Assembly: GCA_024349765.1 (NCBI GenBank)
Contig: AP026073.1
Location: 2,790,001 to 2,854,000 of the forward strand
Reading direction: 5' to 3'
Source: Streptomyces nigrescens
Lineage (GTDB): Bacteria; Actinomycetota; Actinomycetes; Streptomycetales; Streptomycetaceae
DNA length: 64,000 nucleotides
The notes below the pieces were generated by a model, which saw nothing but the letters and a program-made list of their open reading frames with translations, did not search any database and was not told where the DNA came from. Both the position numbers and the translations under genes were made by a program. Positions 5,659 through 19,024 of this stretch are shown in pieces. How positions within the stretch are numbered: position 1 is the first letter of the stretch; the number at the start of each line of letters is the position of its first letter.

Positions 5659-6459
5659 ATGCCCCAGTTCCGCACCGGACGACGCGCCGCCGCCGCGGTC
5701 GTGACCGCCGCCCTCCTCGTCCCGCTCGCCGCCTGCGGCAAGGACGACGGCAAGACCGACAAGGGCGCCGGGAAGTCCGGCGGCAGCACCGCGAACACGC
5801 AGCTGACCGTCCTCGCCGCCTCCTCGCTCACCGACGTCTTCAAGAAGGCCGCCGCGGTGTACGAGAAGGAACACCAGGGCACGAAGGTGAACTTCTCGTT
5901 CGCCGGCTCCCAGGAACTCGCCGCCCAGGTCAAGCAGGGCGCCCCCGCCGACGCGCTGGTCACCGCCGACACCAGGACCATGGACGGGCTGAAGGCGGAC
6001 ACCGGCACCCCGACCGTCATCGCCCACAACCGCCTGGTCATCGTCACCGGCGAGGGCAACCCGAAGAAGGTCCACACCCTCAAGGACCTCACCGACAGCA
6101 AGCTGAAGGTCGTGCTCGCCGCCCCGGAGGTGCCGGTCGGCCGCTACGGCAAGAAGGTCCTGGACGCCCAGAAGCTCAAGGTCACGCCGGTCTCGCAGGA
6201 GCCCAACGTCCGCGCCGTCCTCAGCAAGGTCGAACTGGGCGAGGCGGACGCCGGCCTGGTCTACAGGACGGACGCCGCCTCCGCGCCGAAGAAGGTCGAC
6301 GCCGTCGACATCCCCGACAAGCAGAACGCCGTCGCCGCCTACCCGGCCGCGCCCCTGAAGACCTCGAAGCACGCCGCCGCCGCGGCCGCCTTCGTGAAGT
6401 GGCTGAGCACCCCCGAGGCACAGAAGATCCTGCAGGACGCGGGTTTCCAGAAGCCGTAA
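5659..6459 (+). CDS. modA: Molybdate ABC transporter substrate-binding lipoprotein ModA
   Basis: The 266-residue protein captures molybdate (or tungstate) outside the membrane. The N-terminus has a lipoprotein signal with lipobox LAAC (Cys near residue 28), followed by a Lys/Gly-rich linker. The mature part has ModA landmarks: LTVLAASSLTDVFKKAA, VNFSFAGSQELAAQVKQGAP and DALVTADTRTMD. Late motifs such as LSKVELGEADAGLVYRTDA complete the family pattern. Start is the ATG after AAGGAG. It is followed by a hairpin (6469-6517) and the fused ModB-ModC gene, which together make a full importer. The hairpin may raise binding-protein output over the membrane component. Confidence 0.95.
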   Translation: MPQFRTGRRAAAAVVTAALLVPLAACGKDDGKTDKGAGKSGGSTANTQLTVLAASSLTDVFKKAAAVYEKEHQGTKVNFSFAGSQELAAQVKQGAPADALVTADTRTMDGLKADTGTPTVIAHNRLVIVTGEGNPKKVHTLKDLTDSKLKVVLAAPEVPVGRYGKKVLDAQKLKVTPVSQEPNVRAVLSKVELGEADAGLVYRTDAASAPKKVDAVDIPDKQNAVAAYPAAPLKTSKHAAAAAAFVKWLSTPEAQKILQDAGFQKP

Positions 6460-6468
6460 CGGGGCTCC

Positions 6469-6517
6469 GCGCGCACGGGACTGCCCGGCTCGGGGGAGCG
6501 GACAGCCCCGTGCGCGC
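6469..6517 (+). terminator. Intercistronic hairpin between modA and modBC
   Basis: GCGCGCACGGG (6469-6479) pairs perfectly with CCCGTGCGCGC (6507-6517). The 11-bp stem lies 10 bases after the modA stop and has no U-tract. It may act as a partial terminator or an mRNA 3'-end stabiliser. Confidence 0.5.
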
Positions 6518-6573
6518 CACCGGGGCCGGCCCCCCCCGGCCGGCCCGCCCCCGCCCCGACCCCAGGACCGACG

Positions 6574-8562
6574 ATGAGACGCTCCCGCACCCCCGCCCGG
6601 CCCGCGGCCGCCCGGCGCCGCACGCCCGGCGCCCGTACCCCCGCCGCGCTCGCCGTGCCCGCGCTGGTCGCCATCGCGTTCCTGCTGATGCCGCTGCTCG
6701 GCATCCTCGCCCGGACCACCTGGAGCGACCTCGGCACCCATCTGACCAGTCCCGGTGTCACCGAGGCGCTCGGCCTGTCCCTGCTGGTCTCCTTCTGGGC
6801 CCTGGGCCTGTCGCTGCTGCTCGGCGTGCCGCTGGCCTGGCTGCTGGCCCGGGTCAGCTTCCCCGGCAAGGCGGTGGTCCGCTCGCTGGTGCTGCTGCCG
6901 ATGGTGCTGCCGCCGACCGTCGGCGGTGTCGCCCTGCTGCTCGGCTTCGGCCGCCGCGGACTGCTCGGCCCCTGGCTGGAGGACACCTTCGGCATCGTGC
7001 TGCCGTTCCACACCTCGGGCGCGGTGGTCGCCGCCACCTTCGTCGCCATGCCGTTCCTCATCATCAGCCTGGAGGGCACGCTCGCCGGCCTGCGCCCCAG
7101 TTACGAGGAGACCGCGGCCTCGCTCGGCGCGTCCCCGGTCCGGGTCTTCGCCACCGTCACCCTGCCCATGGTCGCCCCCGGCCTGGCCGCCGGCGCGGCG
7201 CTCACCTGGGCCCGCGCGCTCGGCGAATTCGGTGCCACGATCACCTTCGCCGGGAATCTGCCCGGCACCACCCAGACCCTCCCGCTCCAGGTCTACCTGC
7301 TGCTCCAGGACTCCCCGGAAGCCGCCACCTCGGTCTCCCTGCTGCTGCTCGTCATCGCCATGGCCGTGCTGATCTGCCTGCGCGGCCGCTGGACCGGCGC
7401 GATGCCGGCCGGCCGGACACCGCGCCCCGCGCCGGCCGCCGACGAGACCGAGCCGGCCGGAACGGACAGCGGCGGCCCGCGCGCGGTGACGGAGCGTCAG
7501 GAGACCGCCGCGGAACCGCACCCGGAACGCTGGCCGCTGCACGCCGAGGTCACCGGCTTCACCGCACTGACCCTGGACGCCGGGCCCGGCACCACCATCG
7601 CGGTCGTCGGCCCCAACGGCGCCGGCAAGACCACCCTGCTGCGCGCCCTGCTCGGCCTCACCCCGCGCGCCCACGCCACCCTGCGCCTCGGTGACGCCGA
7701 TGTCACCGCCCTGCCCCCGCACCGCCGCGGCGTCGCCTGGGTCCCCCAGGACGGCGCGCTCTTCCCGCACCTCAACGCCCTGGGCAACACCGCCTACGGA
7801 CTGCGCGCGCAGCGCGTCCCGCGCGCCGAGGCCCGCCGCGCCGCCCAGGAGTGGCTCGACCGGCTCGGCGTCGGCCACCTCGCCCACCGCCGCCCCGCCC
7901 AGCTCTCCGGCGGCCAGGCCCAACGCGTCGCGCTGGCCAGGGCCCTGGCCGCCCGCCCCCGTCTGCTGCTGCTCGACGAACCGCTGGCCGCCCTCGACCA
8001 GACCACCCGGGCCCACGTCCGGCACGCGCTGCGCGGCCATCTCGCGGGCTTCGACGGGGTCTGCCTGATCGTCACCCACGACCCCGTCGAGGCGGTCTCG
8101 CTCGCCCACCGGGTGCTCGTCCTCGACGACGGCCGCGCCCTCCAGGACGCCCCGCCCGCCGAGGTCACCCGGCATCCCCGCTCGCCCTGGGTCGCCCGGA
8201 TGCTGGGCCGCAACGCCTGGCCCGGCACCGCCACCGGCGATGGCCTCGCGCTCGCCGGCGGCGGGCACCTCGTCGTCGCCGACCGCCTGCCCGAGGGCGC
8301 CCGGGCGCTGGCCGTGATCGCCCCCGAGGCGGTCTCCGTCCACCTCGACAAGCCGGCCGGCAGCCCGCGCAACGTCTGGCCCGGCACCGTACGGGAGATC
8401 ACCTCGGCGGGCAGCCGGCTGCGGATCCTCATCACCTCGCCGCACACCCCCGACCTCGTCGCCGAGATCACCCCGTCCGCCGCCCTCGAACTCGGCCTGG
8501 CCGACGGGGTGCCGGTATGGACCGGCATCAAGGCCACCGAGGTCTCGCTCGTGACGCTCTAG
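6574..8562 (+). CDS. modBC: Fused molybdate ABC transporter permease and ATPase (ModB-ModC)
   Basis: The 662-residue protein fuses the membrane and ATPase halves of the molybdate importer. Residues about 25-270 form the ModB permease, with several hydrophobic spans and the EAA-type loop EETAASLGASPVRVFATVTLP. A variable acidic linker (280-320) leads into the ModC ATPase: Walker A GPNGAGKT (346-353), signature LSGGQ (444-448), Walker B LLLLDEP (464-470) and the switch His in IVTHD. A C-terminal TOBE domain (about 570-660, with IKATEVSLVTL) probably senses bound molybdate. ModB and ModC are separate in most bacteria; the fusion fixes their ratio. It follows modA by 114 bases, including a hairpin. 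Confidence 0.95.
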   Translation: MRRSRTPARPAAARRRTPGARTPAALAVPALVAIAFLLMPLLGILARTTWSDLGTHLTSPGVTEALGLSLLVSFWALGLSLLLGVPLAWLLARVSFPGKAVVRSLVLLPMVLPPTVGGVALLLGFGRRGLLGPWLEDTFGIVLPFHTSGAVVAATFVAMPFLIISLEGTLAGLRPSYEETAASLGASPVRVFATVTLPMVAPGLAAGAALTWARALGEFGATITFAGNLPGTTQTLPLQVYLLLQDSPEAATSVSLLLLVIAMAVLICLRGRWTGAMPAGRTPRPAPAADETEPAGTDSGGPRAVTERQETAAEPHPERWPLHAEVTGFTALTLDAGPGTTIAVVGPNGAGKTTLLRALLGLTPRAHATLRLGDADVTALPPHRRGVAWVPQDGALFPHLNALGNTAYGLRAQRVPRAEARRAAQEWLDRLGVGHLAHRRPAQLSGGQAQRVALARALAARPRLLLLDEPLAALDQTTRAHVRHALRGHLAGFDGVCLIVTHDPVEAVSLAHRVLVLDDGRALQDAPPAEVTRHPRSPWVARMLGRNAWPGTATGDGLALAGGGHLVVADRLPEGARALAVIAPEAVSVHLDKPAGSPRNVWPGTVREITSAGSRLRILITSPHTPDLVAEITPSAALELGLADGVPVWTGIKATEVSLVTL

Positions 8563-9243: not shown

Positions 9244-10728
9244 TCAGGACACCAGCTCCACCGCACGGCGGCTCCGGCGGTGCTGCTCGGCCCAGTTGGT
9301 CAGCGCCGCCTCACAGGCGTGGTCGAGATGGCGCAGTCCGCCGAGGTCCAGTTCGACGTCCCGGTGGGCGGGGAGCGCGTCGAGCTGGTCCAGGATCTTG
9401 GGCAGCCGCAGGAACGTGGCGTTGCCGACCGCCCGCACCACCACCGGCTGCCCGGCGTCGTCCGGGGTGTGGATGTCCAGGTGGACGTGCGAGGTCTCCC
9501 AGGCCGTTTTCGCGACCGCCAGCAGCAGACCGATCAGCACCCCCTCGAACATGTTGACCGTGACGATGGCCAGCGCGGTGACCAGCAGCACCACGGCCTC
9601 CCCGCGGTGCTCCCGCCACAGCGGCCGCCACGACTTCAGCGGCAGCAACTTCCAGCCGGCGTGGATCAGTACGCCCGCCAGCGCCGCCACCGGGACGATG
9701 CCCAGCGCGGCCGGGAACGCCGCGGCGAACACCAGCAGCCAGACGCCGTGCAGCACCCGCGACGCCTTGGTCCGCGCGCCGGCCTGGACGTTGGCGGCAC
9801 TGCGTACGATCACCGCGGTCATCGGCAGCGCGCCGAGCAGTCCGCAGAGGGTGTTGCCGGCGCCCTGGGCCAACAGCTCCTTGTCGTAGTCGGTCTTCGG
9901 CCCGTCGTGCAGCCGGTCCACCGCCGCCGCGCTGAACAGCGATTCGGCGGAGGCGATCAGCGCGAAGGCGAGGACCGTGCCCAGCACCCCGACCTCGGTG
10001 AGCCGGCTCAGGTCCGACATGCCCGGTGGCTGGATCGCGTCCAGCAGCCCGCTGACCCGGACCCGGGCGACCGGCAGGTCCAGCGCCCAGACCGTGGTGG
10101 TGGCGAGCGCCACCGCGACCAGCGGCGCCGGGAGCACCCGGGCGCCGCGCCGCCAGCGCGGCCACAGGACCAGCACGCCGATGGTCCCGGCGCCGACCGC
10201 GAGCGCGGACAGCGCGGTGCCCGAGCCGACGGTGGCGGCGGCCAGCGCCGGCACACCGCCGATGTTGGCCAGTCCGCTGCCGGGTGCCTTGGCGTCCGTG
10301 AGGGCGTAGAGCTGGCCGGCGATCAGCACCAGGCCGATGCCCGCCAGCATGCCGTGCACGACGGCGACCGAGATCGCCCGGAACCAGCGCCCCAACTTCA
10401 GTGCGCCCATGGCCAGTTGGAGCACCCCGGCCGCCAGCACCAGGGCGCCCAGCGCCCCGAGGCCGTACTCCTTGACGGCCTCGAAGACCAGCACCGTCAG
10501 GCCCGCGGCCGGGCCGCTGACCTGCAGGCTGCTGCCGGGCAGGAGCCCGGTGAGCAGACCGCCGACGACACCGGTGACCAGGCCCAGTTCGGCCGGTACG
10601 CCGGACGCCACGGCCACCCCGACGCACAGCGGGACGGCCACCAGGAAGACCACCAGGGAGGCGGTGAAGTCGGCCCGGAAAGACGCCGCGCGGGAGGGTA
10701 CCGCGCGGGAGGAGAGCAGTCGCTTCAT
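9244..10728 (-). CDS. SulP-family anion (bicarbonate/sulfate) transporter
   Basis: The 494-residue membrane protein is a SulP/SLC26 transporter. It opens with ADFTASLVVFLVAVPLCVGV, has about ten or more hydrophobic spans, and carries the SulP signature region LPGSSLQVSGPAAGL. The C-terminal cytoplasmic part (VHLDIHTPDD to the end) is a short STAS-like domain. It follows a beta-carbonic anhydrase gene by 17 bases, so the pair probably couples bicarbonate movement to CO2 hydration. I chose the ATG with GGGGTGA upstream rather than the much longer open frame, which runs through the carbonic anhydrase region. Substrate preference for bicarbonate is inferred from the neighbour. Confidence 0.9.
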   Translation of the reverse strand: MKRLLSSRAVPSRAASFRADFTASLVVFLVAVPLCVGVAVASGVPAELGLVTGVVGGLLTGLLPGSSLQVSGPAAGLTVLVFEAVKEYGLGALGALVLAAGVLQLAMGALKLGRWFRAISVAVVHGMLAGIGLVLIAGQLYALTDAKAPGSGLANIGGVPALAAATVGSGTALSALAVGAGTIGVLVLWPRWRRGARVLPAPLVAVALATTTVWALDLPVARVRVSGLLDAIQPPGMSDLSRLTEVGVLGTVLAFALIASAESLFSAAAVDRLHDGPKTDYDKELLAQGAGNTLCGLLGALPMTAVIVRSAANVQAGARTKASRVLHGVWLLVFAAAFPAALGIVPVAALAGVLIHAGWKLLPLKSWRPLWREHRGEAVVLLVTALAIVTVNMFEGVLIGLLLAVAKTAWETSHVHLDIHTPDDAGQPVVVRAVGNATFLRLPKILDQLDALPAHRDVELDLGGLRHLDHACEAALTNWAEQHRRSRRAVELVS

Positions 10729-10745: not shown

Positions 10746-11348
10746 TCACAGCGGAAGGAACAGGTCGGTGGCCGGGTGGTGGGCCGCGACCAGGCCGGTG
10801 TGCACTTCGTAGAACCAGCCGTGCAGGTTCACCTCGCCGGCCGTCAGCCGCTCCCGCACGCAGGGGTACTCGCGCAGCCGGGCGAGCTGCTGGCGCACGT
10901 GCTGCTGGACCGCGGCGGAGACCGTCGGCTCGGGGTCCTCGGGCAGTTCGTCGGAGAGCGCCTGGGCCAGCCAGTCGCGCACGGCCGGCGCGCCGGTCAG
11001 GTCCTCGCCGCGGGCCTTGGCGCCGACCGCGCCGCAGTGCGAATGACCGCACACCACGATGTCGGCGACCCGCAGCACCCGCATCGCGTACTCGATGGTC
11101 GCGGCCTCCGCGCAGGCCGCCATGTCCTCGCGGTAGACGGGCACGGCGTTGCCGGCGGTGCGCAGTTCGAACAGTTCGCCCGGGCGCGCCCCGGTGATCA
11201 GGGACGGGACGACCCGGGAGTCGGAGCAGGTGATGAAGAGGGCGAGGGGGGACTGGCCGGCCGCGAGCCGGCCGTAGGTCTCCTGCTCCTCGCGCCGCTC
11301 GGCGATACGGGCCGTCAGGCCCCGGGCATGCTGGATGAAGGTCTCCAC
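10746..11348 (-). CDS. Beta-class carbonic anhydrase
   Basis: The 200-residue enzyme interconverts CO2 and bicarbonate. The zinc site is complete: Cys41-x-Asp43-x-Arg45 in FITCSDSRVVPS, and His102-x-x-Cys105 in VVCGHSHCGAVGA. The length is normal for a cytoplasmic beta-carbonic anhydrase. It precedes the SulP-type transporter by 17 bases on the same strand, an arrangement that suggests bicarbonate supply or pH balance. Confidence 0.95.
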   Translation of the reverse strand: METFIQHARGLTARIAERREEQETYGRLAAGQSPLALFITCSDSRVVPSLITGARPGELFELRTAGNAVPVYREDMAACAEAATIEYAMRVLRVADIVVCGHSHCGAVGAKARGEDLTGAPAVRDWLAQALSDELPEDPEPTVSAAVQQHVRQQLARLREYPCVRERLTAGEVNLHGWFYEVHTGLVAAHHPATDLFLPL

Positions 11349-11441: not shown

Positions 11442-11861
11442 TCAGCAGCGGAAGACGCAGTGCAGGACGGGGAACGAGGCCGGTCTCGAAGCGGCCCGGG
11501 TGGAAGTGCCCGCGGCCGGGACGCCGGACCCACCGGTGGAAGGCGGCGTCGGCCCGTCGGGGCCGGACGGCGGCAGCGGGCGGCCGGCGTGCCGCGGCAC
11601 GCCGACGGAGGTGCGCGCGGTCCCCCGGGGGGCGCCGCGCTCGGCGTCCCGTTTGGTCTTCTCCTCGTTGGAGTCGGAACCGGGCTTGACGGCGGGCGGG
11701 GCGCCCGCGGGCGTGGCGGCGGGGGCGGCGAACGTGGCGGTCGCATCGGCGCCGGCGGCCACCGCACCCAGCAGGAACGCCAGGACCACGGCGACGGCGA
11801 TCAGCGGGACGCGGAGCAGGCCGCGCACCGGTATGCCGGGTGTGCCGCGGTCCTTCCGCAT
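11442..11861 (-). CDS. Small secreted or membrane-anchored protein, unrecognised
   Basis: The 139-residue product has one N-terminal hydrophobic segment (VPLIAVAVVLAFLLGAVAAG, about residues 18-37) after a basic start. The remainder is Pro/Ala/Thr-rich and probably disordered, with two Cys near the C-terminus. I chose the ATG preceded by GGGGGACGAGG; an in-frame ATG eight codons upstream is possible. It could be secreted or held by an uncleaved anchor. I do not recognise a family. Reading-frame use is consistent with a gene, but the simple composition keeps confidence moderate. Confidence 0.5.
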   Translation of the reverse strand: MRKDRGTPGIPVRGLLRVPLIAVAVVLAFLLGAVAAGADATATFAAPAATPAGAPPAVKPGSDSNEEKTKRDAERGAPRGTARTSVGVPRHAGRPLPPSGPDGPTPPSTGGSGVPAAGTSTRAASRPASFPVLHCVFRC

Positions 11862-12006
11862 CCTCGTCCCCCGTCGCAGGTCCATGCGCCTACAGCCTTC
11901 CCTCACAGTGCAGCATCCAGGTTTCCGGCAGGAAAACGCGAAATGACGCCATGTTTCGAGATTTCTCCTGGTGCACTTGCGCACCACCCGCCGTGCGTAC
12001 GGGAGT

Positions 12007-13290
12007 TCACGACCGCTCCGCCTCCGTACCTGCGGCCGCCGGCACCCCGCGGACCGTGCGCGGCACCCGGGCCGACCAGCCCACGGCGGGCACGACCGCC
12101 AGCGCCAGAACCCCGCCGGCCAGCGCCAGGACCGGGTAACCGCCCACCGCCACGACCAGCCCCGATGACAGCCCGCCGGCCGCACCGGCGCCCGCGATGC
12201 CGACGTCCACCAGGCCCTGGACCGCGGCCCGCCGCTCGGGCGGCAGGGCGTCGGTGACCAGGGCCGTGCCGCTGACCAGCCCGGCGTTCCAGCCCAGGCC
12301 GAGCAGCACCAGCGCCGTGGCGAGTTGCGGGACCGCGTGCGGCGGCGCCGTCGCGGCGAGCACCCCGGCGGCCAGCAGCAGCGGGCCCGACGCGGCGGCG
12401 ATCCACCGCCGGCCGTACCGGTCGACGAGCAGTCCGGTGAGCGGCGAGGGCAGGAACATGGCCGCCACGTGCAGCGCGATGACCAGCCCGGCGGCCTGCG
12501 GGTCCGACCCGTGGGCCAGCATGTGGACCGGCGTCATCGTCATCACCGCGATCATCACGAGCTGGGTGAGGACCATGACCGCGGTGCCGGCCACCAGGCC
12601 GCGCCGCCGGGCGTCGCCCCACGGAGGGCCGCTCGCCGGGACGTCCGCCGGTGGGGCGTCCGCCAGTTCCGGCCCGGCGGCCAGGCGCGCGGCCAGCCGG
12701 AGCGGGTCGGGCCGCAGCAGCACGGCCAGCACCAGCGCCGCCGCGGCGAACGCCACGCAGGCCAGCAGGAACGGCCCGGCCAGCCGGGGAATGCCCCAGG
12801 AACGCGCGAGGTCACCGGTCCACGTCACCAGGTTGGGGCCGGCCACCGCGCCGAGCGTGGTGGCGAACAGCACCGTGCTCACCGCGCGCCCGCGCCGCTC
12901 GGGGGAGGCCAGATCGGCGCCCGCGTAACGCGCCATCAGATTGGTCGCGGTACCGGCCCCGTAGACCAGCAGGGACGCGCACAGCAGCACGGCGCTCCCG
13001 GCGGCGGCCGCCGCGACCACCCCGAGACTGCCCAGCGCCCCGGCGCCGTAGCCGAGGGCGAGGCCGGGGCGCCGGCCCCAGCGGCGGCACAGCCGGCCGA
13101 TCACGGCCGCGCCGCCCGCGGCCCCGGCGGTGAACAGCGCACTGGGCACGCCCGCCAGCCCGGTCGAGCCGAACATCTCCTCGGCGAGGAGCGCCCCGAC
13201 GGTGATGCCCGCGGCGAGCCCGGCCCCGCTGAGGACCTGGGCCACCACCAGGACGGCCAGGACGCGCCGTTGTTCCGGCCTTTCGCGCAT
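12007..13290 (-). CDS. MFS transporter, probable exporter of the peptide locus
   Basis: The 427-residue protein is a 12-span major facilitator. It has GRLCRRWGRRPGLALGYGAG between early helices and the repeat-related GLLVDRYGRRW in the second half, which mark the drug-proton antiporter type. The start ATG follows AGGGGAC, 13 bases after the stop of the GRDP-like gene. It is therefore the last gene of the leftward unit that begins with the Gly-Cys-Ile-Ser peptide. Export of the mature product, or self-protection, is the likely job, inferred from this position. It lacks features of dedicated peptide exporters, so the exported molecule may be small. Confidence 0.88.
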   Translation of the reverse strand: MRERPEQRRVLAVLVVAQVLSGAGLAAGITVGALLAEEMFGSTGLAGVPSALFTAGAAGGAAVIGRLCRRWGRRPGLALGYGAGALGSLGVVAAAAAGSAVLLCASLLVYGAGTATNLMARYAGADLASPERRGRAVSTVLFATTLGAVAGPNLVTWTGDLARSWGIPRLAGPFLLACVAFAAAALVLAVLLRPDPLRLAARLAAGPELADAPPADVPASGPPWGDARRRGLVAGTAVMVLTQLVMIAVMTMTPVHMLAHGSDPQAAGLVIALHVAAMFLPSPLTGLLVDRYGRRWIAAASGPLLLAAGVLAATAPPHAVPQLATALVLLGLGWNAGLVSGTALVTDALPPERRAAVQGLVDVGIAGAGAAGGLSSGLVVAVGGYPVLALAGGVLALAVVPAVGWSARVPRTVRGVPAAAGTEAERS

Positions 13291-13303
13291 GATCTGCGGT
13301 CCC

Positions 13304-13816
13304 CTATACCGGTGCCGGCGACTTCAGCGCCGCGATGTCCGCGAGCGGCATGCCCAGCTGCTCGTGGAGGAAGCGCACGATCGTCCAGTGCGGCAGCGCC
13401 CCCTCGTCGAACGGCCCGAACTCCGCGCAGTACAACGGGATCCAGCGCAGCGCCTCTTCGAGGACCTGCTCGCGGCCCGGCTCCTGCTGGTAGTCCTCGT
13501 AGGCGATGCTGCGGTGCTCGATGAAGTACCGCCCGGGCAGCCGCTGTTCGCACAGCGCGCGGTACTCCCGGGTCTGCAGGATGAGGTAGTGCCAGATCTC
13601 GTCGATGTCCTGCTCGACCGGGAGGAACAGGCCGCCGAGCCGGTCGCGGTACCGCGAGACGAGGAAGAGGTAGCGCAGGCATTCCGTGACCTGCCGCGCC
13701 ACGAACTCCCGCGGCGCCTCGCTGCGGGCGGCGAAATGGTCGAGGACCTCGGTGTGCAGCGCCTCCCCGAGCAACTCCCGGAGGGCGTCGGCGGACAGCG
13801 GCGGGCGGCTGGTCAT
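13304..13816 (-). CDS. GRDP-like small protein of the peptide locus
   Basis: The 170-residue soluble protein contains DIDEIWHYLILQTREYRALC (about residues 89-108). This matches the DxxWHxxILxTxxYxxFC pattern of the glycine-rich-domain-protein-like family (PF07173), whose biochemical role is poorly known. The paired His and Asp/Glu residues could bind a metal. The ATG has a GGAGACCC site. The gene lies 49 bases behind the adenylate-forming enzyme and 13 bases before the MFS gene, so the three are co-transcribed. An accessory enzyme or scaffold for peptide maturation is possible; nothing in the sequence proves it. Confidence 0.65.
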   Translation of the reverse strand: MTSRPPLSADALRELLGEALHTEVLDHFAARSEAPREFVARQVTECLRYLFLVSRYRDRLGGLFLPVEQDIDEIWHYLILQTREYRALCEQRLPGRYFIEHRSIAYEDYQQEPGREQVLEEALRWIPLYCAEFGPFDEGALPHWTIVRFLHEQLGMPLADIAALKSPAPV

Positions 13817-13865
13817 GGGTCTCCTGTGCGGGTGCGGACGGGCAGGTGGGAGGGGGGTGCGCGGA

Positions 13866-15104
13866 TCAGTCGGCGTCGACGAGCCAGGCGTACTTCCCGG
13901 ACTTCCCGATGGGGACGTGGGCGTGGTGCACCAGCCGGCAGCGCCGCCCGGTGAGCGCGCCGACGGCGTCCTCCAGCGCGGCGCACTCGGCGGCCCCGAC
14001 GGGGATGCCGTGGAAGGTGGTGTACGCCAGCAGGGCCTCGGCGGGACCGGTCAGCTGCAGCTGGTAGACGAACACGTCCGGCGACAGCTCACCGATGCAC
14101 CGGTCGAGGTCGCCCTGGGCGACCGGCCCGTTCCGCGTCGGCAGCAACTCCTTCCGGCGGCCGCAGAATTGGGTGATCCGGTCCGGGTCCGGCGTGCCGT
14201 CCAGGGTGCGCACGCAGTCGCCCGAGCGGTAGCGGATCAGCGGCATGAAGGGATTGCGCACGCTGGAGACGACGAGTTCGTGGATCGTGCTCTCCGGGGC
14301 GACCGGATGCAGCTCCACGCTCATCCCGTCGAGGTACGGCCGGTATCCGCCGCGCCGGTCGCTGAAGTAGAGGTAGCCGAGCTCGGTGCTGCCGAAGAGG
14401 TCGATGACCGGGCAGTCGAAGTGCTGTGCCAGGAAGCGCCGGACGTTGACCGGGGTGTACTCGTAGGCGTGGATGATGCTGGCGGGCGGCGGGAAGTCGT
14501 CCCACAGCCCCCACTCCCCGACCTTCCGCAGCAGATGCGCCAGGTGGTACCCGGAGCAGTCGAGGTGGTATTCGCCCCGCGGGTGCGACTGCCGGGCCGC
14601 CTCGATCTCCCGGAGCATCCGCAGGACCTCGTCGCGCTCCCACCGCGCGGGGTCGAGCCGCAGGTTGAGGTAGCAGGTGCGGTCGTCCAGCCACCGGTCC
14701 TCGAAGGAGGGCACCGGCGCCGGCGGGACGCCGCGCCGGGCCGCGCCGACCCGGGCCACGTGCTCGGTCGCCAGCACGGTGGTGAGCGAGACCCGCCGGC
14801 AGCCCGACTCCCAGGTCCCGGCGATGTCCGGATGCTCGCTCCACAGCCGGTAGTAGGAGTGCAGCAGGAAGTACGGGGGCCGGATCAGCTGCATCCGGGC
14901 GTGGTTGGTGCCGGTGGAGAGCACGTATTCCGCCTCACCGGCCTCAAGGGCCGCGGCCAGCCGGGGGGTCATCCAGTTCTCGGGGAAGCCGCGGGCGATG
15001 TCCGGTTTGTCGAGGACCGGGAAATAGCCCTTCGCCAGCGATGCGCGGTAGAGCGGTATGTCGCGGATCTGCTCGATGACCTCGGCGGTCGGCTGACCAT
15101 CCAT
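13866..15104 (-). CDS. PaaK-like adenylate-forming enzyme of the peptide locus
   Basis: The 412-residue protein resembles the phenylacetate-CoA ligase/coenzyme F390 synthetase branch of adenylate-forming enzymes. Supporting motifs are YVLSTGTNHARMQLIRPP in the phosphate-loop position, VIDLFGSTELGYLYFSD at the A5 position, LIRYRSGDCVRTL at the A7 position and GKSGKYAWLVD at the C-terminal end. Such enzymes activate a carboxylate as an acyl-adenylate and pass it to a thiol, amine or CoA. It follows the repeat peptide gene on the same transcript behind a hairpin. Activation of a carboxylate on the peptide, or of an acid attached to its Cys residues, is therefore an attractive inference. The ATG has GAGGGT upstream. 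Confidence 0.8.
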   Translation of the reverse strand: MDGQPTAEVIEQIRDIPLYRASLAKGYFPVLDKPDIARGFPENWMTPRLAAALEAGEAEYVLSTGTNHARMQLIRPPYFLLHSYYRLWSEHPDIAGTWESGCRRVSLTTVLATEHVARVGAARRGVPPAPVPSFEDRWLDDRTCYLNLRLDPARWERDEVLRMLREIEAARQSHPRGEYHLDCSGYHLAHLLRKVGEWGLWDDFPPPASIIHAYEYTPVNVRRFLAQHFDCPVIDLFGSTELGYLYFSDRRGGYRPYLDGMSVELHPVAPESTIHELVVSSVRNPFMPLIRYRSGDCVRTLDGTPDPDRITQFCGRRKELLPTRNGPVAQGDLDRCIGELSPDVFVYQLQLTGPAEALLAYTTFHGIPVGAAECAALEDAVGALTGRRCRLVHHAHVPIGKSGKYAWLVDAD

Positions 15105-15159
15105 GGAACCCTCGTCATGGCTCGGGGAGGAACGGGGAGTGCCCGCGGGGACGGGGCGC

Positions 15160-15222
15160 GGCGCCCGGGAGCGGGCCGGCGGGGGGGGGAAGTGCCACCG
15201 CCGTCCCTTGCTCCCGGGCGCC
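15160..15222 (-). terminator. Attenuator-like hairpin behind the repeat peptide gene
   Basis: GGCGCCCGGGAGC (15160-15172) and GCTCCCGGGCGCC (15210-15222) form a perfect 13-bp stem with a 37-base loop. It lies 19 bases after the peptide stop and before the adenylate-forming gene on the same strand. It probably acts as a partial terminator or 3'-end stabiliser, giving more peptide than enzyme. Confidence 0.6.
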
Positions 15223-15241
15223 GGGGAGTGCCGGTGGACGA

Positions 15242-15397
15242 TCAGGAGATACAGCCGGCCTTCGGCGCGGCGCTGATGCAGCCGGCCTTGGGTGCGGCGC
15301 TGATGCAGCCCTCCTTCGCCGCCTGTGCGGCGGAGTTGGCGGCCAGCCAGCTGCGCCACACGTCGTCCTGGGCCATCTTCTTGATGAGCTGCTCCAT
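15242..15397 (-). CDS. 51-residue precursor peptide with triple Gly-Cys-Ile-Ser repeat
   Basis: This short gene is supported by a GGAGG site 7 bases before the ATG and by a consensus promoter upstream (15465-15494). The product is 51 residues. The helical leader-like half begins MEQLIKKMAQDDVWRSWLA and continues with NSAAQAAKEG. The C-terminal half reads GCISAAPKA twice and ends in GCIS. The only three Cys residues are exactly nine residues apart, each in the context Gly-Cys-Ile-Ser. The leader loosely recalls Nif11 or NHLP leaders (a helix ending in xAAKEG), but no double-glycine protease is nearby. The downstream adenylate-forming, GRDP-like and MFS genes suggest a RiPP or peptide-carrier pathway in which each Cys is modified or each repeat is released. 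Confidence 0.8.
   Translation of the reverse strand: MEQLIKKMAQDDVWRSWLAANSAAQAAKEGCISAAPKAGCISAAPKAGCIS
15245..15310 (-). repeat. 27-base in-frame tandem repeat in the precursor gene
   Basis: Two complete 27-base units (15245-15271 and 15272-15298) and a partial third (to 15310) encode the Cys repeats. The units differ by a few third-position changes, such as TGT/TGC and CCG/CCC. The amino acids are identical in the core, so the repeat is kept at protein level. Confidence 0.9.
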
Positions 15398-15762
15398 GGG
15401 AACCTCCGTGAGAGTCGGAAGACGGTCCGGCATCGGTGCTGACCTGCGTAGATGCCGCACACCGAAAGTAAAAGCCTGGCCAAGCAAATGTCAATGAAAG
15501 GCAATGCCGGGGCGGTGTGAGGCGGCCCCGGCGCGCCAACTTTGGCGGGATACCGCCGAGGTGATCGGGGCCCGGAACTACCTGACGGGCAGTCAGTCAC
15601 GTCTCGCCCGGGCGGGGGTTCGGCGGACGGGTTGCGCCATACGGCCGTCGCCGATCGGGGGACCTGCCGGGCGGGCGCGCGGCGTGCGGCCGTGCCCGGG
15701 GAACGCTCACCACCGGCCACCCCGGCCCACCGCACCGGTTGCCGCACCAGGGGAGTGAAGCT
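15398..15762. other. Divergent intergenic region of the peptide locus
   Basis: No gene is visible in these 365 bases between the leftward peptide gene and the rightward HypX-like gene. It contains the leftward promoter at 15465-15494 and an AT-richer patch around 15460-15505. A small dyad GGCGG-GATA-CCGCC near 15545 lies on the HypX side. I cannot place the rightward promoter. Confidence 0.4.
15465..15494 (-). promoter_or_regulatory. Consensus promoter of the repeat peptide operon
   Basis: On the minus strand TTGACA (15494-15489) and TACTTT (15470-15465) are separated by 18 bases. This is a close match to the housekeeping promoter pattern and the best promoter in the window. Transcription would start near 15458, leaving about 60 bases of leader before the peptide ATG. 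Confidence 0.7.
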
Positions 15763-17475
15763 GTGCACATTCTGCTCATCGCCGGCGCCTTCAACAGCCT
15801 GACCCAGCGCGTCCACGCCGAACTCGGCGACCGCGGCCACCGGGTGGGCGTGGAACTGGTGACTCCGCGGACCCCGCTGCTCGACGTCGTACGCCGCCAC
15901 GCCCCCGACCTGATCGTGGCGCCCATGCTCACCACGGCCGTTCCCCGGGAGGTGTGGTCCGCCCACACCTGTCTGATCGTGCACCCCGGCCCGGTCGGCG
16001 ACCGCGGTCCGTCCTCCGTGGACTGGGCGGTGCACCTGGGCGCGGACGCCTGGGGCGTGACCGTCCTGCAGGCCAACGCCGAGATGGACGCCGGCGACAT
16101 CTGGGCCTCGGCGAGCTGCCCGGTCCCCGCGGTGGGCAAGAGCGACCTGTACCGCAACGAGATCGCCGACGCGGCCGTCGAGGCGGTGCTCACCGCCGTC
16201 GAGCGCTTCGCCTCCGGCACCCACCGCCCGCAGCCCCAGGCCACCCTGCCCGCCGGTGCCCGCCCCGGCCGGCCCCGGCCACCGTTCCGCCAGGACCTGC
16301 GCCGGATCGACTGGCGCTCGGACCCCACCGCCACCGTCGTACGCACGCTCCGCGCCGCCGACTCCCGGCCCGGCGTACGGGACGAACTCCTCGGCGAAAC
16401 CTGGATGTTGCACGGCGGACATCCCGAGGACACCCTGCGTGGGCGGCCGGGTGAACTTCTCGCCACCCGGTGCGGCGCGATCTGCCGGGCGACGGCCGAC
16501 GGCGCGGTGTGGATCCCCGAACTCCGGGCGCCGCGCCGGCCGGGGGAGCCCGGCACCGTCAAGCTCCCCGCCACCCTCGCACTGGGCGACCGCCTGCCGC
16601 CGCTCCCCGAGATCCCGGCACCGCTCGACCGGGGCGAGGCGCCCCGGACCTGGAGCGACATCCGCTACCGCGAGGAAGGCCCGGCGGGATTCCTGGAGTT
16701 CTCCTTCCCGGGCGGGGCGATGAGCACCGACCACTGCCGGCGGCTGCTCGCCGCCTACCGCCACGCCTGCACCCGGCCCACGTCCGTGCTGGTCCTCGGC
16801 GGCCGCCGGGACTTCTTCTCCAACGGCATCCACCTCAACGTGATCGAGGCGGCGGCCGACCCCGCCGAGGAGTCCTGGGCCAACCTCAACGCCATGGACG
16901 ACCTCGTGGAGGCCGTGCTGACCACCACCGACCGGCTGGTGGTCGCCGCGCTCGGCGGCAATGCCGCGGCCGGCGGGGTGATGCTGGCGCTCGCCGCCGA
17001 CGAGGCGTGGTGCCGCTCGGCCGCGGTGCTCAACCCGCACTACCGGCTGATGGGGCTCTACGGCTCGGAGTACTGGACCTACACCCTGCCCCGCCGGGCC
17101 GGGCGGGAGGCGGCCGAACGGCTCACCACCCGCGCCCTGCCGGTCACCGCCGCGACCGGGCAGCGGCTCGGACTGGTGGACCGGACCGTGGACTGCGCCG
17201 CGCGGGACTTCACGGTCCGGACCACCGAACTGGCGCGACGGCTGGCGGCCTCGCCGGCGGTCCAGTCGCGGATCGCCGCCAAGAAGGACGCCCGGGAGCG
17301 GGACGAGGCGGAGCGGCCGCTCGCCGCCTACCGGGAGCACGAACTCGCCCGTATGCACCGGATCTTCTTCGACCCGGACCAGCCGTACCACGCCCTGCGC
17401 CGGGCGTTCGTCCGCAAGGAACCCTCGGACGGCACCCCGGCACATCTCAACCCGGCCGCCTTCGCGGGGGGTTGA
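15763..17475 (+). CDS. HypX/HoxX-like formyltransferase-enoyl-CoA hydratase fusion
   Basis: The 570-residue protein has the two-part build of HypX/HoxX. The N-terminal formyltransferase-type domain (1-270) carries LIVHPGPVGDRGPSSVDWAV and the MDAGDI motif. The C-terminal crotonase-like domain (about 300-550) has LGGRRDFFSNGIHLNVIEAA, LGGNAAAGGVMLALAADE and GLYGSEYWTYTLPRRAG. Known HypX makes CO from formyl-tetrahydrofolate, through formyl-CoA, for NiFe-hydrogenase maturation. No hydrogenase gene is present here. The GTG start has GGGGAG upstream. It is divergent from the repeat peptide gene, so a formyl-CoA or CO supply for that pathway is possible; it may also be an unrelated neighbour. Confidence 0.85.
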   Translation: MHILLIAGAFNSLTQRVHAELGDRGHRVGVELVTPRTPLLDVVRRHAPDLIVAPMLTTAVPREVWSAHTCLIVHPGPVGDRGPSSVDWAVHLGADAWGVTVLQANAEMDAGDIWASASCPVPAVGKSDLYRNEIADAAVEAVLTAVERFASGTHRPQPQATLPAGARPGRPRPPFRQDLRRIDWRSDPTATVVRTLRAADSRPGVRDELLGETWMLHGGHPEDTLRGRPGELLATRCGAICRATADGAVWIPELRAPRRPGEPGTVKLPATLALGDRLPPLPEIPAPLDRGEAPRTWSDIRYREEGPAGFLEFSFPGGAMSTDHCRRLLAAYRHACTRPTSVLVLGGRRDFFSNGIHLNVIEAAADPAEESWANLNAMDDLVEAVLTTTDRLVVAALGGNAAAGGVMLALAADEAWCRSAAVLNPHYRLMGLYGSEYWTYTLPRRAGREAAERLTTRALPVTAATGQRLGLVDRTVDCAARDFTVRTTELARRLAASPAVQSRIAAKKDARERDEAERPLAAYREHELARMHRIFFDPDQPYHALRRAFVRKEPSDGTPAHLNPAAFAGG

Positions 17476-17502: not shown

Positions 17503-18045
17503 TCAGGGCGCGGGGTGGTACTTGTACCCGATACCGAAGACCGTGCGGATCGAATCGCGCAGGCCCGGTCCCAGACGGCGGCGGAGCCGGGCGATGTGCA
17601 CGTCGACGGTGCGGGTGCTCGACTGGCAGCTCGGCCAGACCGCGGCCATCAGCTGCTCCCGGGTGAAGGCCCGCTGGGGATGCCGGACGAGGTGTGCGAG
17701 CAGGTCGAATTCGAGCTTGGGCAGGCCGAGTTGGCGGCCCTTGATGAAGACCGTGCGGGCCGCGTTGTCGATCTGGATCGGCTCCGGGCGGGGGGCCGGC
17801 CCGGCCGCCGGTTCCTCGGGACGGGGCGGGTTCTCACCCGGCGGGGCCAGGATGATGTGCACCTCGTCCGAGGGCAGCCGGTACACGGAGACGGGCTCCA
17901 GGGCGTGCAGGGTCAGTTGCCAGGTCCCGTCCGGGAGCCGGTCGACCGCCAGGGGTGGCCCTTCGCCGGGCCCGGCCATGACCGGGCGGCCGAAGTCGGC
18001 ATCCGGTCGCAAAGCAAGCGGGGTCGTCGAGGAGTTCATAAACAT
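17503..18045 (-). CDS. OmpR/PhoB-type winged-helix regulator lacking a receiver
   Basis: The 180-residue protein ends in a complete OmpR/PhoB DNA-binding domain (about 90-178): RTVFIKGRQLGLPKLEFDLL, HPQRAFTREQLMAAVWP and VDVHIARLRRRLG. The final VFGIGYKYHP is the usual wing. In place of a phosphorylatable receiver the first about 80 residues form a short beta-rich segment (DGTWQLTLHALEPVSVYRLP) of unknown role. It would therefore act without a classical two-component switch. I used the ATG at 18045; an in-frame ATG two codons later and a TTG at 18069 are alternatives. It is convergent with the HypX-like gene and faces a long intergenic region. Control of the adjacent peptide locus is an inference. 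Confidence 0.85.
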   Translation of the reverse strand: MFMNSSTTPLALRPDADFGRPVMAGPGEGPPLAVDRLPDGTWQLTLHALEPVSVYRLPSDEVHIILAPPGENPPRPEEPAAGPAPRPEPIQIDNAARTVFIKGRQLGLPKLEFDLLAHLVRHPQRAFTREQLMAAVWPSCQSSTRTVDVHIARLRRRLGPGLRDSIRTVFGIGYKYHPAP

Positions 18046-19024
18046 GATCTGGGCCCATTCCTCTTGCAAAGCAGGCGTGTACGGACAGACATGGCGGTGC
18101 TCGACGTTCGAAGGGTGCTGAGGTGCTGTGCAGCCATCGCGACGTTAATCCGGTGGCGGGGCGTGGTCGCGAACAGGCACGTGGGAGGCGGCTGCGCCCA
18201 ACGGGGGCAATCGCTCCGTCCGTGCACAAGAACGTTCGCGCCCATGCCCGTACTCGGCCATGACGTGGTGCGTGGCCACGGCCTCCGGTCGGACGAACGC
18301 TACATGTGATCGCGCGCTTCCGGAAAGTAGCTTCCGCTAATTTCGGTTGCTCTTGGGTCGAATCCGTGCTTGCGGTGCGCCAACTCCCTTGGGGTGACAG
18401 GTGGGTGGTGACCGGCGCGGAGTGCCGTTTCGTTCAACGAAGGTGCAAAAAATTGCCGGAACCTGCGGGGTCGTCATCAGCGTGGGAGTCGTTTGCGCCT
18501 GGAAGTGCGCCGTGAAGAGGCCCGGAGCGGCACGCGTGTCGGGCTCGCGGTGACTTCTCGGTCCGGGAACCGGTCTCCGTCCGGCATGGCCGGAAATCGC
18601 GGGTGAACTGGCCGAGAGGTACGGGCCGTCGGCGCATAAGGGGGCCGGTTCGACGGATCGGCGGCCGTCGCGGGTGCCGGACGGGGAGTCGTGCGCGAAA
18701 CGGAGGGGTAGGGCGTCGATGGCCTCCGCTTGTGGAGGGTTGGTGAACGCCTGAATATGCCAATTAAATGCACTGGGGTCGAACGGGGCTCAAGGGGAAG
18801 GGGTCCACGGGAAGTTGGCCGGAAAGTGGTTTCCTCTTCAATCTCTTTCTCGTCGGTCAGAGCAAAAGGGTGCGGAACCAGATATTCCAGACGACTGTTT
18901 TCCTGGTGAGTTGATGATGAGTAGGGTGTGGCCCGCTGCTGCTCGACCGGTGGCAGGGCCAGCTGAATTCGGCGCGGCTGGAATGCGGTGTGGCGGATGA
19001 CGCCTTCGTGACCGGGAGGGGACC
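18046..19024. other. Long intergenic region, about 980 bases
   Basis: No convincing gene lies here. The stretch is less GC-rich than its surroundings, especially near 18300-18350, 18440-18460 and 18820-18920, and open frames crossing it show no codon bias or ribosome-binding site. It must hold the promoters of the divergent regulator (17503-18045) and the rightward gene at 19025. TAGGGT at 18922-18927 is a possible -10 element without a good -35. Confidence 0.5.

Follow-up and report, generated by a model that had tools for sequence, protein, structure and literature searches.

The window, that is, the whole 64,000-nucleotide stretch of DNA analyzed here, belongs to a 9.3 Mb genome of Streptomyces nigrescens. 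It contains a short gene for a peptide with repeated Cys residues, which is followed on the same strand by genes for a PaaK-like ligase, a GRDP-like protein and an MFS transporter. The features of the locus are as follows.

15464..15506, minus strand: conserved promoter motif (TTGACA, CTTGG in the spacer, CTTTTAC.TTC), with a single occurrence in the genome
15242..15397, minus strand: putative precursor or carrier peptide of 51 residues, with a conserved N-terminal part, MEQLIKKMAQDDVWRSWLAANS, followed by three K-x-G-C-I-S units
13866..15104, minus strand: PaaK-like adenylate-forming enzyme, 412 residues, with presumed adenylation motifs invariant in 33 aligned sequences
13304..13816, minus strand: remote GRDP-like protein, 170 residues, carrying the signature DExWHxxILxTxxYxxxC...H; in loci L092 and L096 it forms one protein with the ligase
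12007..13290, minus strand: MFS transporter, an optional member
10746..11348, minus strand: beta-carbonic anhydrase (PF00484), recurrently associated
9244..10728, minus strand: SulP anion permease (PF00916) with a STAS domain, recurrently associated
15763..17475, plus strand: HoxX-like formyltransferase/crotonase, divergently oriented, present in 14 of the 80 named loci defined below

The gaps between the four consecutive genes are 137 bp (peptide to ligase), 49 bp (ligase to GRDP-like gene) and 13 bp (GRDP-like gene to MFS gene), all on the minus strand. The promoter consists of TTGACA and TACTTT separated by 18 bp, and GGAGG precedes the ATG of the peptide gene. Gene order, gaps, promoter and ribosome-binding site all agree with the initial annotation, which had proposed a new RiPP or peptide-carrier locus. 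The HoxX-like gene within the same range went unmentioned there, and the ligase-GRDP fusion and the carbonic anhydrase/SulP link described below are also new.

The association between the peptide and the enzymes was analyzed in two sets of loci. The first was a survey of 392 genomes of the genus, including that of the window (E < 1e-180 for the ligase and E < 1e-12 for the peptide). The ligase occurred in 48 of these genomes and the peptide in 49, and in all 48 ligase-bearing genomes the peptide was located directly upstream of the ligase; in the 49th peptide-bearing genome (G081, locus L094), the contig stops 30 bp past the peptide. The GRDP-like gene follows in 47 of the 49 loci, and the other two (L091 and L094) are interrupted by contig ends. 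The second set, the named loci, was obtained by a profile scan of genome contigs with the GRDP-like alignment, and the best 80 of 125 relatives were kept. Among these best 80, the peptide was found 1.4–2.0 kb upstream of the GRDP-like start in 78 loci; in the remaining two (L188 and L196) the contig ends short of the peptide position, and hence all 78 testable loci were positive. The two sets overlap, as 25 of 48 fetched genus loci (the window not counted) are identical in sequence to a named locus, and therefore their counts must not be summed. Loci that keep the enzymes and lack the peptide, a case that would have spoken against the initial annotation, were looked for; with 48 of 48 and 78 of 78 testable loci carrying the peptide, no such case was seen in any intact locus. 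Genome G303 (L109) retains ligase residues 311–410, a GRDP-like match split over two frames and part of the MFS gene, and the search for the peptide there gave nothing below E 0.01. This is a decayed copy of the unit, in which the peptide and most of the ligase have been lost.

The carriers among named species include S. griseus, S. noursei and S. rimosus, and the named loci also include one Kutzneria and one Kitasatospora beyond the genus. The nearest named relative of the window locus is that of Streptomyces endophytica HNM0140 (L119), with 99% identity in the GRDP-like protein and 96% in the ligase. A survey of 396 genomes of the phylum detected the complete GRDP-like protein in the window's genome only and gave remote relatives in six others. 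The ligase matched none of the PLSDB plasmids at E 1e-30.

The window peptide, MEQLIKK...GCISAAPKAGCISAAPKAGCIS, has Cys residues at positions 31, 40 and 49, in three GCIS units spaced by nine residues as initially annotated. We compared it with the peptides of the 78 named loci (79 sequences in total, 75 distinct, with 224 Cys). The context K-x-G-C-[IV]-S was observed for 221 of the 224 Cys, the exceptions being one R-x-G-C-V-S (L140) and two Cys in GCIC of L163; a peptide with unconserved Cys repeats, which would also have counted against the earlier proposal, was not found. Two units were present in 7 distinct peptides, three in 64 and four in 4. Cys residues were 9 positions apart in 117 cases, 8 in 23, 7 in 3, 10 in 1 and 12 in 3, with odd spacings of 2 in L163 and of 17 in L154, one unit of which reads GYIS. 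Thus, the conserved element is the K-x-G-C-I-S unit, whereas the nine-residue repeat, true of the window, is the commonest of several spacings and not a fixed rule. The distinct peptides end at GCIS in 71 cases, at GCISR in two, at GCVS in one and at GRAS in one, and a peptide of the genus set (L103) ends at GRIS.

Several observations argue that this pattern is maintained at the protein level. In 38 peptides of equal length, pN/pS was 0.23 for residues 29–51 and 0.48 for residues 1–28, and codon usage was mixed (TGC 170 and TGT 64; AGC 143 and TCC 76), which together speak for selection on the protein. Among 3006 control ORFs of 35–100 residues from 800 kb of DNA of the genus, none contained two GC[IVL]S motifs and none had a Cys-holding four-residue word (xCxx) three times; with nothing comparable in the controls, the Cys repeat is not due to chance. 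The Lys, Gly and Ser of the unit are conserved equally to the Cys, so conservation does not fix which atom is modified. Library matches of the peptide were all below threshold and of other kinds (linalool dehydratase, 0.0048; SicP, 0.0092; an NHLP-related RiPP peptide, 0.11). At the sequence level the peptide has the organization of a RiPP precursor, being ribosomal, with a conserved putative leader and a separate repeated core.

The ligase is a divergent protein. The window sequence reached neither the Pfam nor the NCBIfam cut-offs for PaaK/ANL adenylate-forming enzymes: the DVU_1553 family profile gave 2.4e-9 with 36.7 of 300 bits, far under the cut-off, and TIGR02155 gave 18.6 of 646.3 bits. 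The Pfam AMP-binding family matched one of 33 ligase sequences (E 0.026), and the best PDB profile match, 9s3l, was weak and partial, covering residues 208–355 only (E 3.8e-7). In an alignment covering 33 of the 48 sequences on hand, S63-T-G-T66, S239-T-E241, R291-Y292, G295-D296, G315-R316 and K404 were invariant, and we take these residues to be the adenylation motifs. The motifs and the weak, partial profile matches point to a PaaK-like protein. In adenylation motifs and in length it resembles the PaaK-like ligases represented by PDB 9s3l, 6wuq (AjiA1) and 6siw, and it differs from them in its weak, partial profile match, in escaping recognition by Pfam and in having the peptide always adjacent where testable.

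Assignment of the third protein to PF07173 in the initial annotation did not hold: the window GRDP-like protein matched no Pfam family and missed the gathering score of PF07173. This family matched one of 28 aligned homologs (E 0.12) and recognized none of five remote relatives; a PF07173 search of 198 genomes gave no matches, not even in the 14 control genomes among them, and this absence therefore carries no weight. When compared by hhalign with five remote relatives, the window protein yielded a probability of 97.2% and E 2.9e-11, and the DExWHxxILxTxxYxxxC...H signature is common to it, GRDP-like proteins and their bacterial relatives, from which it differs by pairing with a separate Cys-repeat peptide. 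Among seven remote relatives (L112–L118), long Cys/Gly-rich tails were present in L113 and L118; L112 ends in a Cys-rich tail and L116 in the short sequence CDSDCG. No such tail was present in L114 or L117, and L115 was covered in part. One of these, L118, is encoded in the window's own genome. It is possible that the GRDP-like domain is at home with Cys-rich peptides, which may be provided in cis in the relatives and in trans here. Two loci, L092 (9293–11038) and L096 (9273–10979), encode the ligase and the GRDP-like protein as one fusion in a single frame, L096 being the same locus as named L193. In nine named loci the two genes overlap by about 4 bp (with extrapolated starts).

Most peptide genes, inspected by eye, are preceded by TTGACA, a spacer with CTTGG and CTTTAC, often with CATTGCC further upstream. 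Of the 78 upstream sequences, 41 matched a strict form of this promoter, and the remaining 37 mostly resemble looser versions. In all 10 loci with SulP upstream on the same strand, the SulP gene ends 63–408 bp before the peptide, and in three of them (L184, L187 and L193) the usual promoter was not seen. The extended motif occurs once in the window's genome, with up to 3 mismatches allowed, and thus no regulon is apparent there.

An MFS relative was found within the fetched stretch of 58 of 80 named loci, against 1 of 40 control stretches, and in 56 loci it immediately followed the unit in the same orientation. It was not directly downstream in the other 24. The MFS gene, which had been counted as part of the unit, indeed directly follows it in the window; it is, however, an optional and not a core member.

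Within ~10 kb of the named loci, carbonic anhydrase was found in 53 of 80, SulP in 51 and either of them in 56. For comparison, 40 stretches of 20 kb were taken arbitrarily from 20 genomes of the genus, and the pair occurred in 2 of them; Fisher's test for 56/80 versus 2/40 gave 2.6e-12, a value that is indicative only because related loci are not independent. A chance-pair estimate from SulP counts was below 1%, and the control puts the background higher. These genes were located downstream on the same strand, downstream on the opposite strand, upstream on the same strand, or upstream on the opposite strand at two distances. When placements were labeled with identity classes, 17 changes were needed on a quick ligase tree, as compared with a mean of 43 after shuffling; many forks of this tree are open, and its well-supported branches alone force fewer than 17 changes. 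The carbonic anhydrases, including that of the window, retain C.DSR in 53 of 54 sequences and GH..CG in 52 of 54. Clusters of SulP and carbonic anhydrase genes are frequent in Streptomyces, where their proposed role is bicarbonate transport (PMC5489568). In loci without these genes, 20 neighboring proteins from 12 loci were scanned and no recurrent family was found; as their neighbors are unrelated, the three-gene unit seems autonomous.

Taken together, co-occurrence, synteny, motif conservation and natural ligase-GRDP fusions strongly support a unit of peptide plus enzymes. That part of the earlier proposal stands firmly, and a RiPP or carrier-peptide nature is our best inference from the sequences. 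As in RiPP pathways, candidate modifying enzymes are conserved with the putative precursor, on which they would act. None of the class-defining enzymes (lanthipeptide, YcaO, radical SAM, lasso) was present among 15 window proteins scanned, in agreement with the initial annotation, and the conserved core lacks proteases, enzymes known from RiPP pathways and enzymes for making an acid. LuxE acyl-protein synthetase would be a precedent for an adenylating enzyme that attaches acyl groups to Cys residues of a protein. We favor, with a probability of roughly 0.55, a minimal three-gene ribosomal-peptide system in which the ligase and its GRDP-like partner acylate each Cys unit. The conserved N-terminal part would serve as a recognition leader, and each of the 2–4 K-x-G-C-[IV]-S units in the C-terminal part as an independent acceptor. 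The PaaK-like enzyme would activate a carboxylic acid by adenylation and, together with the GRDP-like protein, attach its acyl group to every unit, the Cys thiol being the most likely site. The units might then be released as near-identical short products, presumably ending at Ser since the last copy usually stops exactly there, or be kept on one multi-acylated scaffold. Where present, the MFS transporter would export the product, and carbonic anhydrase and SulP might supply bicarbonate or provide self-protection.

If this reading is correct, the RiPP-type or peptide-carrier pathways would gain one that relies on an adenylate-forming enzyme together with a functionally uncharacterized protein family. 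The unit is present in 48 of the 392 genus genomes surveyed and in the named species. The unit is small enough for reconstitution, with three genes, or two where the ligase and the GRDP-like protein are fused, and the recurrence of carbonic anhydrase and SulP offers a testable idea about target or substrate.

Another possibility, which we consider clearly less probable, is that the peptide is not a product at all but a recyclable carrier, its Cys units acting as phosphopantetheine-free thiols onto which the acid is loaded and from which it is passed on. A short acceptor motif repeated in varying copy number beside an adenylating enzyme would suit such a carrier, as would the lack of a protease and the many loci without MFS; however, the GRDP-like protein is the sole conserved neighbor that could act in tailoring or transfer. 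A similarly tentative variant is a phosphopantetheine-free multi-site carrier, loaded by the ligase with its GRDP-like partner, that is tied to bicarbonate via carbonic anhydrase and SulP; for example, its product might block carbonic anhydrase, the gene pair then conferring self-protection.

We regard as quite improbable a cyclization in which the ligase activates the C-terminal Ser carboxylate by adenylation, either in the whole peptide or in each released unit, for ring closure with Lys or Cys to give small macrocycles. The GCIS ends of 71 of 75 distinct peptides and the Lys preceding nearly every unit are compatible with this reaction; the four divergent ends speak against it, as does the resemblance of the ligase to small-acid CoA ligases rather than to known activators of peptide C-termini. 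It is just as doubtful that the peptide is a metal binder, with zinc or another metal bound by the Cys units in bare or acyl-capped form and with carbonic anhydrase and SulP reflecting zinc or bicarbonate physiology. Three units per peptide in 64 of 75 cases and a zinc enzyme in the vicinity of 53 of the 80 loci would fit, but peptides with two or four units exist, a bare metal-binding peptide would need no adenylating enzyme, and by eye the promoter has no known metal-regulator box. Finally, a functionless attenuator that senses Cys supply by ribosome stalling, as might be suggested by a small reading frame with several Cys codons ahead of an operon, is highly improbable and was rejected on the codon evidence, namely protein-level conservation with free synonymous change.

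The favored acylation of an encoded scaffold has partial counterparts. The TglA/PEARL system (3-thiaglutamate; PMC9016710) likewise uses a ribosomal peptide of ~50 residues as a scaffold for Cys chemistry, but there Cys is appended from cysteinyl-tRNA at the C-terminus, whereas here it is encoded 2–4 times, with a PaaK-like ligase as the enzyme. In the nosiheptide NosI/NosJ/NosK system, too, an adenylating enzyme activates an acid bound for a RiPP; that thiopeptide pathway employs the carrier protein NosJ and the hydrolase-like NosK (PMC5585349), and no such genes were found in the conserved unit here. The literature searched, which covered few subscription papers, held no description of this peptide-ligase-GRDP unit and no class with this enzyme set, as had been noted initially; we class it as a candidate RiPP/peptide-scaffold system.

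Other genes of the window were also considered. The HoxX-like gene was rejected as a core member because of its presence in only 14 of 80 named loci. A regulator at 17503–18069 (minus strand) has a C-terminal OmpR-type DNA-binding domain and no further Pfam domain was found in it; this regulator, present in 20 of 80 loci and in only 14 at 60% identity or more, was likewise rejected as a core member. Between the MFS and carbonic anhydrase genes (11442–11885, minus strand) lies a gene for a 147-residue protein without a Pfam match, which has a hydrophobic N-terminal stretch and ends in FPVLHCVFRC, and a family of comparable small genes occupies that position in 13 loci. Two genes past SulP, at 5659–8562 (plus strand), a binding protein and a fused permease/ATPase with a TOBE domain form, by resemblance, a molybdate-type ABC transporter.
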